A DNA stretch of 64,000 nucleotides, taken from the NCBI GenBank assembly GCA_016290415.1, contig JAEETP010000001.1, positions 41,007-105,006 on the forward strand, written 5' to 3'. Position numbers and translations under genes: made by a program. Positions 29,627 through 37,947 of this stretch are shown here, one piece after another (the stretch's first letter is position 1; each line of letters opens with the position of its first letter). A model generated the notes under the pieces. It was not told the DNA's origin and did not search any database. It was given only the letters and a program-made list of their open reading frames with translations. Source of the stretch: Bacteroidales bacterium. GTDB lineage: Bacteria > Bacteroidota > Bacteroidia > Bacteroidales > UBA932.

Positions 29627-32600
29627 TTAAGATTGCAAATTTAGCATTTCTTGCAATAATTCCACTGCTTTTTTGACACTTCTGACTTTTTCGCATTTGA
29701 CAAACAGTGAATTAGGACGCTGTACAAGTTGATATTTGTGCTGCGCACGCTGTATATATTCCAGTATCTGGCCAAAGGTGCGGCTGTTGTAATAAGATGA
29801 ACTCTGATTGGATACAAAATAGGCCAGCATATTGCCCCCCTTGAGTATTATCTTCTCAAATCCGAGTTCTATGGCCACCTGGCGCAGGCGCACAATATTT
29901 ATCAGTTCGTCCAGCTCGGGCGGCACGGGGCCGAAACGATCGGTCATCTCCGCCACAAAACCGTCTATCAGCGCAGAACTCTTCATATTGTCCAACTCTC
30001 GGTAGAGACGCATCTTCTCTTTAGGCACGTTTATATAATCGTCCGGGATGAAAGCCTCTATGTCGGTGTCGATATAACAGTCTGATACCCAGCCTCCCGA
30101 AATCACGCCTCCGGCGTCGGGGGTTATTTCGTCAGCATCCAGTTCGCCGCGAAGCTCGCTCATTGCCTCTGACAGTATCTTCTGATATGTTTCAAAACCC
30201 ATCTCCGCAATGAAGCCGCTCTGCTCTGCTCCCAGCAGGTTTCCGGCGCCGCGGATGTCCAGATCCTGCATTGCTATGTTGAAGCCGCTGCCCAGGTCGC
30301 TGAATGTCTCTATCGCATTCAGGCGGCTGCGGGCTTCGTCAGAGAGAATGGCCTGCGAGGGAACTATCAGGTAGCAATATGCCTTCACGTTGCTGCGCCC
30401 TACCCTGCCGCGAAGCTGGTGCAGGTCGCTGAGGCCAAAATATTGGGCGCGGTTTATGAGCATAGTGTTGGCGTTGGGTATGTCCACGCCGTTTTCCATA
30501 ATGGTGGTGGAAACCAGTATATCGTAGTCGCCGTCTATAAAGTCCAGGATTTTCTTTTCCAGCTCCACCGGCTCCATCTGGCCGTGGGCAACACAGATGC
30601 GCGCCTTGGGACATATCAGCCTTATCTGGTCGGCCACCGCGTCTATATCCTCTACCCTGTTGTGTATGAAATATACCTGCCCGCGCCTCTCCAGCTCGGT
30701 TTCTATAATCTCCTTAATGACGTCGGGGTCAAAGTCTATTATCTCCGTGTGTATAGGGATACGGTTGGGCGGAGGAGTGGATATTATGGAGATGTCCCTT
30801 GCCCCGAGCAGCGAGAACTGCAGCGTGCGCGGGATAGGCGTTGCGGTGAGCGTGAGGGTATCCACGTTTTTCTTGAGCATACGCATCTTTTCCTTGGCGC
30901 TTACGCCAAACTTCTGCTCCTCGTCTATCACCAGCAGACCCAGGTCCTTGAATATTATTTCCTTGCCCAGGATGCGGTGGGTGCCTATCAGTATATCTAT
31001 CTTGCCTTCGCGGAGCCTCTGGGCTATTTCACGGACCTCCTTGGCGGTTTTCAGACGGCTGATAAACTCTATGTTGCAGGGGAAGTCGTTCAGACGGCTG
31101 CGGAAGGTATGATAGTGCTGCAGCGCCAATATGGTGGTGGGCACCAGCACCGCCACCTGCTTGCCGTTTGCAACCGCCTTGAAAGCGGCGCGGATGGCCA
31201 CCTCGGTTTTGCCGAATCCCACGTCGCCGCATATCAGACGGTCCATAGGATGATTGTCCTCCATATCCTTCTTGACATCCTCTACCGCCTTGTGCTGGTC
31301 GGGAGTGTCTTCATACATAAAGGAGGATTCCAGCTCCTGCTGCAGATAGTCGTCAGGGGCAAAGGCAAAACCCGGCACCGAATATCTCTCGCTGTAGAGT
31401 TTTATGAGGTCGGCGGCTATATCCTTGACCTTGCTCTTGGTGTTGTTCTTGAGTTTTTCCCAGCTCTTGCTGCCCAGCTTGTATATTTTGGGAGGGGCGC
31501 CGTCGGCGCTCTTGTAGCGGCTGATGCGGTGGATGCCGTGAATAGAGACGAATATAACATCACCGTCTTTGTAGGTGAGTTTTATGGCCTCCTGCATCTT
31601 GCCGTTTATGTCGGTGCGCACCAGGCCGCCAAAACGGCCCACACCGTGGTCTATATGCACCACATAGTCGCCTATATTGAACGACATCAAATCGTTCAGG
31701 GTCAGCCGCTCGCTGCTGGTGACCTCGCGCTTGGTCACTATCTTGTGGTAGCGCTCAAATATCTGGTGGTCGGTGTACCAGCACTGCTTTTCGGTGTTGC
31801 TTATGTAACCTTCGTGCAGTGAGATGGATATGAATTCTACATTGGCCCCTACTCCCGTCTCTTCAAGAATTTGTTTCAGACGGACCGTCTGATTCAGCTG
31901 CGGAGAAAGTATATGCACCCTGTAGCCGTTTTCTTCCCTGTTGGTAATATCCCGGCACAGAATCTCAAAGTTCTTGTTGAACGCGGGTTGGGGAATTACA
32001 TCAGAAGCGTTTTCCCTGTTGTAGGTTATATCTTCGCAAAAGTCCCAGAAAAGAGTACTTTCCGGCAGTTGCTCGGTAAAATCAACATACTCCTCTTCGC
32101 CGTGGTTTTCGAACAGGTTGGGATAAATATCCACCTGCTGAACCTTTTCTATGGTGCGCTGGGAATCAGCGTCAAAGCGGGAAATCTGCTCTACCTCGTC
32201 TCCAAAAAAGTCTATGCGGTAGGGATAGTTGTCGGCATAGGAAAAAATGTCTATTATGGATCCGCGCAGCGCAAATTCGCCCGGCATTGAGACAAAATCC
32301 ACCTTTTTGAAAGCTGCTTCAAAAAGGACTTCCTTCACAAAGTCGTGGCTTAATGAATCTCCTTTTTTTATGGATATCACACTGCCGGCCGTCTGGCTTT
32401 TGCGCAGCACCTTCTCTGCCAGCGAATCTTTATAGGAGACAATGATCAGGGGTTTGTTCAAGCTGTTCAGCTGCTTGTTTAAAAGTCCCTTGCCTATAGT
32501 GGTGCTGCCTTTGCCTATAATCTGCTCAAGATTGGCCGGCAGGGCGGTGGCGGTGAAATTGTCCACCGCCTTTATGGCGGCGGTGCGCTGCACCTTGCTG

Positions 32601-32833
32601 GTGGCGCTTTTTACCGACTGTGCCGATTTGCCGTCTGTGGCAGAAGGGAGATAATACAGACATTCGTCGGTGAAGAAGTTGTCGAGGTCACTGGTAAAAA
32701 ACAGTGCCTCTTTCTTTGTATTAAAGCATACTAAATTGAGTGTTGGAGCGTCAAACTGCGATACCGCATTGGCCAGGAATACTGCTTTGCAGGATACTCC
32801 GCCGTTAAGGTTATCGAATTTCAATCGCTTCAT
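29627..32833 (-). CDS. mfd: Transcription-repair coupling factor
   Basis: CarD-like RNAP-interacting domain ([17 protein letters not shown]), helicase motifs [51 protein letters not shown]; 1068 aa. Confidence 0.97.
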   Translation of the reverse strand: [1068 protein letters not shown]

Positions 32834-33953
32834 AGAATGCCTTTATCTGTTCTCTGTTGAATTGAGGTGCGAAATTATCAAATATTTTATCTTCCGACTC
32901 CCTTATTTCTTTCATAATAGGGCGAACCTTATCCAGATCCACATATTTGTGACCGTCATTGAAATTCAGGGAGAATATATCCGCCTTTCGCCTAAGACTC
33001 CTCTCACAGGCGGCGGAAAAATTGTTGTTGCCGCTGCCCAGCATATCCTCAGGAATAATATCTCCCGCACCCACTTTCATAGGGACAATCTGCGCTGCCG
33101 GCGGATATCCCAGGGCACACCAGAATACACATTCGGAGGTATCTTCTCCAGGATTTACTCCCTGAACAATGGTTACACCCACAGATGACCTTCTGGGAAT
33201 GAAATCTCGGTCCACAAAAAGATGACAGCCGCTGCTTATTGCATCCAGACCGAACTGTGACTGCCAGTAACTTCTTGAAAGGCCGTCCATTATAAATCTT
33301 ACATCTATTTTTTCTCCTGAGGACAGTATGTCTTTTATAAGTTTAGATGCATTGTCGTATCTCACATATCCCTGACCTTTGTTTTCAGCGCCCGAAAAAG
33401 AGTAGTTTGTACGGATTATATATCCTTCAGGAGCTTCATTTACATCAAACTTGAGCCAACCGTAATTATTGACTTCGTAGTATGCGGCACCGCCGGCGGC
33501 ATCTATCACTCCAAAATTGGTTTCAAGCCCATAAGGAGCCTGCAATCCATCCAGCAGTTTTTCAAAATCTTCCAGAGTTCTGCAGGTGGCCAGTGCCTTA
33601 TACATCACTATTCCCTCTTTATCCATCATAGATTCGGGGGTTTCATCCCCTTCCTGCCGGATATTATAGGAAACTGTATTCATTATGGAAAAACCGGCAC
33701 TGTTCACTCCGCTCCAGGCCTCTGCGGGAGATTCCTTACTGTTTGAAAGATATATGAAACTGTATTTTATATCGCCGCCTGCAGGAATATAAACCACCCG
33801 GTTGTGGTTGGTGCCGCTGTCGCGGTTTTTCCAGATTATGGGACGTCCGTCGGCAGTAACCTTTCCGGAAAAAATGGCGCTGGTGCAGCAGTCGCCGTTC
33901 TGCGGTAAAAGCAGGGCAGATAATATCAGTATAAATGAAAGTAAACGCTTCAT
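32811..33953 (-). CDS. Secreted Ntn-hydrolase, C45/choloylglycine-hydrolase-like superfamily
   Basis: Signal peptide ending ...QNGDC followed by CTSAIFSGKVTADGRPIIWKNRDSG, WSGVNSAGFSIMNT. An N-terminal Cys nucleophile is expected after processing. 23-nt overlap with the mfd start. Confidence 0.75.
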   Translation of the reverse strand: MKRLLSFILILSALLLPQNGDCCTSAIFSGKVTADGRPIIWKNRDSGTNHNRVVYIPAGGDIKYSFIYLSNSKESPAEAWSGVNSAGFSIMNTVSYNIRQEGDETPESMMDKEGIVMYKALATCRTLEDFEKLLDGLQAPYGLETNFGVIDAAGGAAYYEVNNYGWLKFDVNEAPEGYIIRTNYSFSGAENKGQGYVRYDNASKLIKDILSSGEKIDVRFIMDGLSRSYWQSQFGLDAISSGCHLFVDRDFIPRRSSVGVTIVQGVNPGEDTSECVFWCALGYPPAAQIVPMKVGAGDIIPEDMLGSGNNNFSAACERSLRRKADIFSLNFNDGHKYVDLDKVRPIMKEIRESEDKIFDNFAPQFNREQIKAFYEAIEIR

Positions 33954-34979
33954 TTAGAAAAGGGTATTGTCGGGAGCCAGACGGCTGAGTCCGAGATGTG
34001 TGTAGGCCAGATCGGTGGCTTCACGGCCGCGCGGAGTGCGGCGTATGAATCCTTCCTTTATAAGGAAAGGCTCATAAACCTCTTCAAAGGTGCCCTGGTC
34101 TTCACTGATAGCAGTTGCAATGGTGCTTGCACCAACCGGTCCACCCTTGAATTTTTCAATAATGGTGGTCAGTATCTTATTATCAATAGCGTCCAGGCCG
34201 CGCTTGTCTATATTGAGGGCGTTGAGGGCGTATTTTGTGATATTCAGGTCTATCTCTCCATTGCCCTTCACCTGGGCAAAGTCGCGCACTCGGCGAAGCA
34301 GATTGTTTGCAATACGTGGTGTGCCGCGGCTGCGCATAGCTATCTCTACTGCTGCATCATCTTCTATTCCTATATTAAGTATGGATGCACTGCGCTTTAT
34401 GATGCCTGCAAGAGTTTTATAATCGTAGTATTCAAGGTGCTCCTGAATGCCGAAACGGGCGCGGAGAGGCGAGGTCAGCAAACCGCTGCGGGTGGTGGCG
34501 CCTATAAGTGTAAAAGGACTCAGCGAAATCTGCACGCTGCGGGCTCCGGGGCCTTTGTCTATCATTATGTCTATCACATAATCTTCCATTGCAGAGTAGA
34601 GATACTCCTCCACAACAGGACTCAGGCGGTGTATTTCATCTATGAAAAGGACATCACCCGGTTCAAGGCTGGTCAGAAGGCCTGCAAGATCTCCGGGCTT
34701 GTCCAGCACCGGGCCGGAGGTTATTTTCATATTAACCCCAAGCTCGTTGGCCACTATATGAGCCAAGGTGGTTTTTCCAAGGCCGGGAGGGCCGTGAAAC
34801 AGAATATGGTCCAGCGACTCGCCGCGGATTATGGCCGCCTGGACATAAATCTTAAGCTTCTCTATTATATCTGCCTGCCCTCCAAAATCGTCAAACTGAC
34901 CCGGACGTATTTTGTTTTCAAAGTCGGTGTCCTTGGATGCGAATTCTTCGCGTGGCTTGTATGAAACTTTTTCACTCAT
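33954..34979 (-). CDS. ruvB: Holliday junction branch migration helicase RuvB
   Basis: [69 protein letters not shown]. Confidence 0.97.
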
Positions 34980-35033
34980 AAAACAAAATTAAAAAGAAAT
35001 ATTTGAAATTCTTTTTTGGGTCTGATATCTGTC

Positions 35034-35192
35034 TGTTGAAAGTGTTGATAAATTTTTTTATTGCGGTTTCAGGTGCGTAGAGAAGCTTTTTTTCTGAATT
35101 ATTTTGTTAGTTGAGGTGTTGATAAAAAATGATAAGTTGTAGATAAAACAACTTATTGTTGATTACCTACAACTTATCAGAAGTTTTCAACA
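35034..35192. other. Candidate DnaA-box cluster / possible oriC in ruvB-frdB intergenic region
   Basis: DnaA-box-like 9-mers: TGTTGATAA (35043-35051, 35117-35125), TGTAGATAA (35138-35146), TGTTGATTA (35157-35165), TTATCAGAA (35174-35182), TTTTCAACA (35184-35192), in AT-rich DNA. Confidence 0.45.
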
Positions 35193-35217
35193 GTAGTTAA
35201 TATTGTTATTAACAATA

Positions 35218-36000
35218 CTACTCACTGAGTTTAGCTGAGAGGAATTCGCGGTTAAGGCGTGCAATGTGGGCAACTGTGATGCCTTTAGGGCATTCCAGCT
35301 CGCAGGCACGGGTATTTGTGCAGCTGCCGAATCCCAGAGCATCCATAGTATCCACCATAGCCTTTGCGCGGCGAGCACCCTCTATCTTGCCTTGAGGGAG
35401 CAGAGCCAGTGAACTTACGCGGGCTGCCACAAACAGCATTGCAGAGCCGTTTTTGCAAGTTGCTGCGCAGGCACCGCAACCTATGCAGGCAGCGGCATCC
35501 ATACTCTTTTCTGCATTCTCCTTCTTGATAGGGATTGCGTTGGCGTCGGGAACACCGCCGGTATTCACAGAAATGAAGCCGCCGGCCTGGAGAATCTTGT
35601 CGTATGCGCGGCGATCCACCACCAGGTCTTTGATGATGGGGAAACCGCTGCTGCGCCAAGGTTCAATGGTGATGGTGCTGCCGTCTTTGAATTTGCGCAT
35701 ATAAAGCTGACAGGTAGTGACACCGCTCTCAGGACCGTGTGCACGGCCGTTGATATAAAGCGAGCAGGCACCGCAGATGCCTTCGCGGCAGTCGTGGTCA
35801 AAGCTGACGGGACCGCTGTGGCCTTTGCAACCCTTGTCGAAAGCTACGGGATTAATCTTTTCATTTACAAGCTGCTCGTTGAGAATATCCATCATCTCGA
35901 GAAAAGATGTGTCGGGGCTGATGCCGTCGATTTTATAGGTCTCGAAATGACCTTTAGCCTTGGCGTTCTCCTGACGCCATATTTTAAGTGTAAATTTCAT
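35218..36000 (-). CDS. frdB: Succinate dehydrogenase/fumarate reductase iron-sulfur subunit
   Basis: [58 protein letters not shown] Fe-S motifs. Confidence 0.95.
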
Positions 36001-36006
36001 AATCTC

Positions 36007-37947
36007 TTAGTCTTTATAGTTGCGGGTTGCGACTTTGCAATATTTGAATTCCAGAGGCTCCTTGTGGAGTGAAGGCTCTTCTTCGCCCTTGTATTCCCAG
36101 GCAGCGACATACATAAAGTTTTCGTCGTCACGCTTGGTTTCACCCTCTTCTGTCTGCATTTCCTCGCGGAAATGACCGCCGCAGGATTCGCGTCTGTTAA
36201 GAGCGTCATAGGCCATAAGCTGACCTATTTCCAGGAAGTCTGCCACGCGCAGAGCCTTCTCCAGCTCCTGGTTGAAGTGCTCGTTGTCGCCGGCTACATA
36301 TACATTGCTCCAGAACTCTTTCTTAAGGTCGCTGATAAGGCCGATGGCCTTCTTCAAACCGGCCTCGTTGCGGGCCATACCTACGTATTCCCACATAATG
36401 TGACCGAGCTCTTTATGGATGCTGTCCACGGTGCGTTTACCCTTGATGGAAAGGAGCTTGTTGATGCGCTCTTTGATTTTAGCCTCAGCCTCTTCAAACT
36501 CGGGAGCGTTGGTGTCGGTCTTGGGCTCTTTGAACTTGGATGCCAGATAATCACCGATGGTGTAAGGGAGAATGAAATAACCGTCGGCCAGACCCTGCAT
36601 AAGTGCCGATGCACCCAGACGGTTTCCGCCGTGGTCGCTGAAGTTTGCCTCGCCTATTGCGTACAGGCCGGGAATTGTGGTCTGGAGATTATAGTCAACC
36701 CAGAGACCGCCCATTGTGTAGTGGATGGCGGGGAATATCATCATAGGCTCCTTGTACGGGTCAACATCGTTGATCTCTTCGTACATCTGGAAAAGGTTGC
36801 CGTATTTCTCTTCGATATACTTGCGGCCCTTCTGCTCCATACAGGTCTTGAAATCCAGGAACACTGCAAGACCCTGCTCGTTTACGCCGAAACCTGCGTC
36901 GCAGCGCTCTTTGGCAGCACGGGAAGCCACGTCGCGGGGAACCAGGTTACCGAAAGCGGGATAGCGGCGCTCCAGATAGTAGTCGCGGTCTTCCTCTGCA
37001 ATGTCGCTGGGCTTTTTGGTGCCCTTGCGGATAGCCTGTACATCTTCAAGTTTCTTGGGAACCCAGATGCGGCCGTCGTTACGCAGGGACTCTGACATAA
37101 GGGTAAGTTTACTCTGCTGGTCGCCGTGAACGGGGATGCAGGTCGGGTGGATCTGTGCGAAGCAGGGATTTGCGAAATATGCACCCTTCTTGTAGCACTG
37201 CCAGGCGGCGCTGCCGTTGGAGTTCATAGCGTTGGTAGAGAGGAAATAGGTATTTCCGTATCCGCCGCTGGCCACAACCACAGCGTGGGCGCCGAAGCGC
37301 TGGATTTCGCCGGTGGTAAGGTCGCGGGCAATGATACCTTTGGCCTCGCCGTTAATCAGCACCAGGTCCAGCATTTCGTGGCGGGGATAACTCTTGACAG
37401 TACCTTTTGCCACCTGACGGTTAAGGGCTGCATAAGCACCCAGCAGAAGCTGCTGACCGGTTTGTCCGCGGGCGTAGAAAGTACGGGATACCTGTGCGCC
37501 ACCGAAAGAACGGTTGTCCAGCAGTCCGCCATAGTCGCGTGCAAAGGGAACACCCTGGGCCACGCACTGGTCTATGATGTTGTTGCTGACCTCTGCCAGA
37601 CGATATACATTGGCTTCGCGGCTGCGGTAGTCACCACCCTTGATGGTGTCGTAGAACAGACGGTAAACCGAGTCATTGTCGTTCTGGTAGTTCTTTGCCG
37701 CATTGATACCGCCCTGCGCTGCAATGGAGTGTGCGCGGCGGGGGGAATCGCTGATGCAGAAGATTTTAACATTGTAGCCAAGTTCACCGAGAGTGGCAGC
37801 TGCGCTGGCTCCGGCAAGACCTGTGCCGATTACGATGATTTCCATCTTCTTCTTGTTGGCGGGGCTCACGACTCTGATATGAGCCTTGTGGTTGGTCCAT
37901 TTCTCGGCCAACGGTCCTTCAGGAACTTTGGAAATTAGTTCTGTCAT
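36007..37947 (-). CDS. frdA: Succinate dehydrogenase/fumarate reductase flavoprotein subunit
   Basis: [75 protein letters not shown]; 646 aa. Confidence 0.96.

Follow-up and report, generated by a model that had tools for sequence, protein, structure and literature searches.

This locus raises the question of whether the AT-rich gap between frdB and ruvB is the chromosomal replication origin (oriC) of a Bacteroidales bacterium, as a preliminary description of the DNA had suggested. The window, that is, the whole stretch of 64,000 nucleotides that was analysed, corresponds to positions 41007-105006 of contig C86 in the Bacteroidales assembly G000 (156 contigs, 2.31 Mb), whose closest named relatives are Bacteroidales MAGs from rumen and omasum. 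The cluster of DnaA-like boxes in the gap, its conservation, the GC-skew minimum of relatives and synteny all support the suggestion, and from these sequence comparisons we consider the frdB-ruvB gap very probably to be the oriC of this chromosome.

A cluster of DnaA-like boxes between frdB and ruvB

The gap comprises the 238 bp from the frdB stop to the ruvB start. Its GC content is 25.6%, compared with 46-60% for 2-kb bins across the window, which confirms the AT-richness noted earlier. Six 9-mers in the gap match TTATCCACA or TTATCAACA (TTATC[C/A]ACA) with at most one mismatch (Table 1). In 2000 dinucleotide shuffles of the gap, the mean was 0.30 boxes and the maximum was 3, and the second-ranking 250-bp segment of the window contained two boxes in the same scan (at most one mismatch). 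No rival box cluster was found when positions 1-40000 of C86 were scanned. The gap is an AT-rich intergenic region with an above-chance cluster of boxes, as is expected of an oriC.

The six 9-mers listed in the preliminary description were all found at the coordinates it gave, and the core boxes are 21 and 19 nt apart, as it had stated. The consensus is matched with at most one mismatch by five of them; the remaining one, TTATCAGAA at 35174, differs from TTATCCACA at three positions and is weak. The plus-strand box TTATTAACA and the minus-strand second half of the tandem double site had been overlooked.

Table 1 Features of the frdB-ruvB gap and its neighbours (positions in the window).
Feature	Position	Strand	Basis or remark
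ruvB, neighbour on one side	33954..34979	-	Pfam RuvB_N, AAA_lid_4, RuvB_C
Proposed oriC (frdB-ruvB gap)	34980..35217	.	Box cluster above chance, family conservation, GC-skew minimum of relatives, synteny
AT-rich flank between ruvB and double site	34980..35033	.	Candidate unwinding region; AT-rich in relatives too
CTTTCAACA, second half of tandem double site, 9-bp pitch	35034..35042	-	Sequence
DnaA-like box TTATCAACA, first half of tandem double site nearest ruvB	35043..35051	-	Sequence
DnaA-like box TTATCAACA	35117..35125	-	Box scan
Inverted repeat, followed by a U-rich tract	35131..35178	-	Possible terminator of the frdB transcript
DnaA-like box TTATCTACA	35138..35146	-	Box scan
DnaA-like box TAATCAACA	35157..35165	-	Box scan
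DnaA-like box TTTTCAACA	35184..35192	+	Box scan; TGTTGAAAA-like column in genus alignment, conserved
DnaA-like box TTATTAACA	35206..35214	+	Box scan, genus alignment
frdB/sdhB, neighbour on other side	35218..36000	-	mfd there in most relatives

Conservation of the boxes among relatives

The regions upstream of ruvB were compared in 80 related loci and in an additional 30. In 55 loci, mfd and ruvB are transcribed divergently, and 3-10 boxes lie in the intervening gap, which mostly measures 235-540 bp; in 18 loci of the window's genus, frdB is located upstream of ruvB and the gap contains 4-7 boxes. Box density upstream of ruvB was 1.3-1.4 per 100 bp at these 73 mfd or frdB loci versus 0.22 at 38 other loci, that is, about six times lower where neither gene lies beside ruvB. 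When the mfd-ruvB gaps are aligned, the boxes are the best conserved noncoding columns. Read from mfd, the layout consists of TTATnAACAT, an array of GTTnAnAAnnTGTTGAnAAC, a middle TTnTnAACA, the tandem TTATnAACATnTnAACA near ruvB, and TATATTTGTA before ruvB. The 9-mers, whose loss in close relatives had been proposed as a test of the origin, were kept in both close and distant relatives. Position and box layout are conserved, with one such site per genome, as would be expected for an oriC.

The partner gene opposite ruvB varied between loci (mfd, frdB, a hydrolase-like gene or a ychF-like gene), and the boxes stayed. At one locus, L006, no boxes were found immediately upstream of ruvB; the cluster (L006:8908) lies about 1 kb from ruvB with an alpha/beta-hydrolase-like gene in between, and there the origin and ruvB seem to have become separated.

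The tandem double site was present in 44 of 72 loci, with a pitch of 9 bp in the window's genus and 8 bp in most other genera. Of 25 same-genus genomes, 16 (G000 among them) have exactly one copy of the pattern TTATMAACANTWTCAACA, and the reversed control has none; wherever the pattern and ruvB share a contig in these genomes, it is located within 1 kb upstream of ruvB. The nine same-genus genomes in which the pattern was not found are mostly incomplete assemblies, and in one that is 96% complete (G018) neither the pattern nor ruvB was found. We also followed the double-site pattern in other families (G038, G042, G046 and G047), of which only G038 has a real cluster, with six boxes at L219:7579 (C20:259579 of G038) flanked by NadA-like and TrmH-like genes (named by eye). 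This six-box cluster is a candidate oriC of G038, a member of another family of the same order. The match in G047 lies inside a reading frame and was rejected.

A basal unwinding system (BUS) was taken to require tandem DnaA boxes adjoining at least three DnaA-trios (3'-NAN-5', best GAT). A search for a canonical DnaA-trio after the double site gave no clear one in the window. The longest DnaA-trio run averaged 2.2, versus 1.9 in shuffles, and a period-3 AAT/CAT run is present in some relatives only.

GC skew in complete relatives

Three one-contig genomes of the family, G029, G036 and G088, were sampled in 20-kb stretches that covered 47%, 35% and 17% of their chromosome bins, respectively. 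The sampled chromosome-wide minimum of cumulative GC skew in G029 is at 670 kb, and at 672.0 kb in 500-bp steps, with the ruvB start at 672.4 kb. That of G036 is at 10 kb in 10-kb bins and at 16.5 kb when resolved finely, with the box cluster at 16.26 kb. The fine local minimum is about 0.5 kb or less from the homologous gap in both genomes, and in random 60% subsamples the minimum fell in the same bin in about half of the trials and otherwise mostly nearby. For G088, the minimum of a contiguous 120 kb is at 1494.0 kb and the box cluster at 1493.9 kb, and the sparse whole-chromosome sample (17%) puts the minimum elsewhere. Regression of third-position skew, corrected for gene strand, gave a best step at a distance of 0.6 kb from the site for both G088 and G036, and of 9 kb for G029. 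Divergent transcription of mfd and ruvB alone would produce a small local skew minimum. The GC-skew check proposed in the preliminary description thus gave a minimum on the homologous gap in G029 and G036 at the scale of the chromosome and in G088 locally, and a blunt switch up to about 42 kb off in the window's own contig.

The skew minima also bear on a regulatory role of the boxes, in which DnaA or a protein with similar sites would control transcription of the repair genes ruvB and mfd and the true origin would be elsewhere nearby. A role of this kind would fit the usual position of the cluster directly upstream of ruvB and the conserved TATATTTGTA element between the double site and ruvB, an element that resembles the -7 promoter motif of Bacteroidetes. 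We nevertheless regard it as improbable in view of the chromosome-scale minima on the gap in G029 and G036, the separation of the cluster from ruvB in L006, the persistence of the boxes when the partner gene changes between mfd, frdB, hydrolase-like and ychF-like genes, and the lack of another comparable cluster on the window's contig. A promoter role on the ruvB side can be compatible with an origin.

Skew and synteny in the window's own genus

The assemblies of the window's genus are fragmented, and the skew switch in them is blunt and 14-42 kb from the site. Along C86, GC skew falls up to 40 kb, stays level until about 80 kb and increases a little after that. The distance between the site and the best strand-corrected step was 42 kb for C86, 23 kb for G021 and 14 kb for G008, with the step on the ruvB-downstream side in every case; a step at the site was better than no step in C86, G021 and G008 (p 0.0005, 0.0015 and 0.02, respectively).

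Synteny compensates for the blunt skew. In G029, G036 and G088, the counterparts of window genes up to about 58 kb ruvB-downstream lie on the mfd side of the origin; the genes beyond frdA, over a distance of about 21 kb, have theirs on the other side, with orientations that mostly match. Because synteny holds on both sides, the gap corresponds in chromosomal position to the origin of the complete genomes. Gene order within the mfd-side arm is rearranged in the window's genus, and this internal rearrangement may blur the skew there. At 29627-37947 of the window, the ori-ruvB-C69-like segment and frdAB were each found to be inverted as small blocks relative to relatives, with flanking synteny kept.

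It is conceivable, with a probability still lower than that of a regulatory role, that only other genera use the homologous gap as their origin, and that the active origin of the window's genus has shifted by 14-42 kb to the ruvB-downstream side, leaving the boxes as remnant or secondary sites. The skew switch points of G000, G021 and G008, all ruvB-downstream of the site, and the inversion of the ori-ruvB block point in that direction; they are countered by the double site kept once in 16 of the 25 genus genomes, by the lack of a rival box cluster in C86 and by the rearranged gene order that may blur the skew. We infer that the frdB-ruvB gap is active as an origin in the window's own species. 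A chance cluster, which the very AT-rich spacer might invite, is scarcely credible, as no shuffle reached the observed box count and the boxes are conserved across genera.

Position of dnaA

G000 encodes an intact DnaA with ATPase and helix-turn-helix domains. Its dnaA gene is on contig C145 and the site on C86, and the proposed oriC is not dnaA-linked. dnaA is also remote from the site in complete relatives (dnaA at position 76 kb of G029, 1.63 Mb of G036 and 0.72 Mb of G088), and is 0.6-1.0 Mb from the homologous gap in G029 and G036. An origin beside dnaA was considered and rejected, as G000 has no box cluster there and L001, L172 and L173 hold at most 2-3 boxes per 250 bp. The preliminary description had held that the absence of dnaA is not decisive. 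A study of Prevotella intermedia states that Bacteroidetes commonly have their oriC at a distance from dnaA (PMC4755523). The gap would be a further case of a known origin type.

In G036, the DnaA ATPase model also gave six additional weak matches (C1:481447, 1364446, 1377848, 1962104, 1967246 and 2248560), in frames of 249-263 aa; these are perhaps IstB-type transposition helpers.

An inverted repeat specific to the lineage

A perfect 12-nt inverted repeat had been counted among the origin features of the gap. The repeat itself was confirmed (35131-35142 / 35167-35178); its value as origin support was not, since it is lineage-specific. Only 3 of 13 aligned genus sequences share it (the window, L002 and L090), and it is therefore not a conserved part of the element and was rejected as a conserved origin or RNA element. 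An Rfam search of the repeat returned chance matches only, far below gathering scores. Several other genus sequences have a G+C-rich hairpin after frdB instead. The segment from 35131 to 35178 forms a strong AT-rich hairpin (z -7.9), with a U-rich tract after it on the minus strand. Rather than being part of the origin, the inverted repeat may terminate frd transcripts before they enter it, and the AT-rich hairpin possibly replaces the G+C-rich hairpin of sister species in this function.

A model of the proposed origin and its relation to known systems

By analogy with established oriC biology, DnaA, expressed from its gene on C145, would bind the cluster of TTATCAACA-type boxes. The strands would open at the AT-rich ruvB-side flank, presumably beside the conserved tandem double site, after which helicases would load and two forks would leave in opposite directions. 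We suggest tentatively, and with somewhat less than even confidence, that the family has an origin design of its own, in which TTATCAACA boxes follow a fixed layout whose last element, next to the unwinding region, is a tandem double site with a pitch of 8-9 bp, shorter than one helical turn. Within a single genus, on this view, the compact ori-ruvB unit would have been flipped in place with its chromosomal address kept.

The analysis fixes the proposed oriC to a few hundred bp in a family of mostly uncultured gut Bacteroidales, in which dnaA is no landmark. With such a location, growth rates can be estimated from metagenome coverage, genomes can be rotated and replichores analysed, and the gap offers a compact, well-delimited target for work on origin opening by DnaA in Bacteroidetes.

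The oriC of Bacillus subtilis, which has a basal unwinding system, likewise combines clustered and tandem DnaA boxes with an adjacent putative unwinding region (PMC6669920, PMC8287927). Unlike that origin, the gap is far from dnaA and its tandem pitch is 8-9 bp, and the B. subtilis DnaA-trio consensus 3'-GAT-5' is not evident in the window (PMC6669920, PMC8287927). Our literature search for Bacteroidetes origins found neither the ruvB-mfd setting nor the TTATCAACA layout, and nothing on ruvB with oriC; DoriC or other databases may still list it. The text of the P. intermedia report (PMC4755523) gives the position and DnaA boxes of the predicted oriC of chromosome 1, and no flanking genes. As described there, this origin and other DoriC Bacteroidetes origins likewise have multiple DnaA boxes and a GC-skew transition and are far from dnaA. 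A dnaA-remote oriC is already known in Bacteroidetes, and what is new here is a well-located, conserved origin in a little-studied family.
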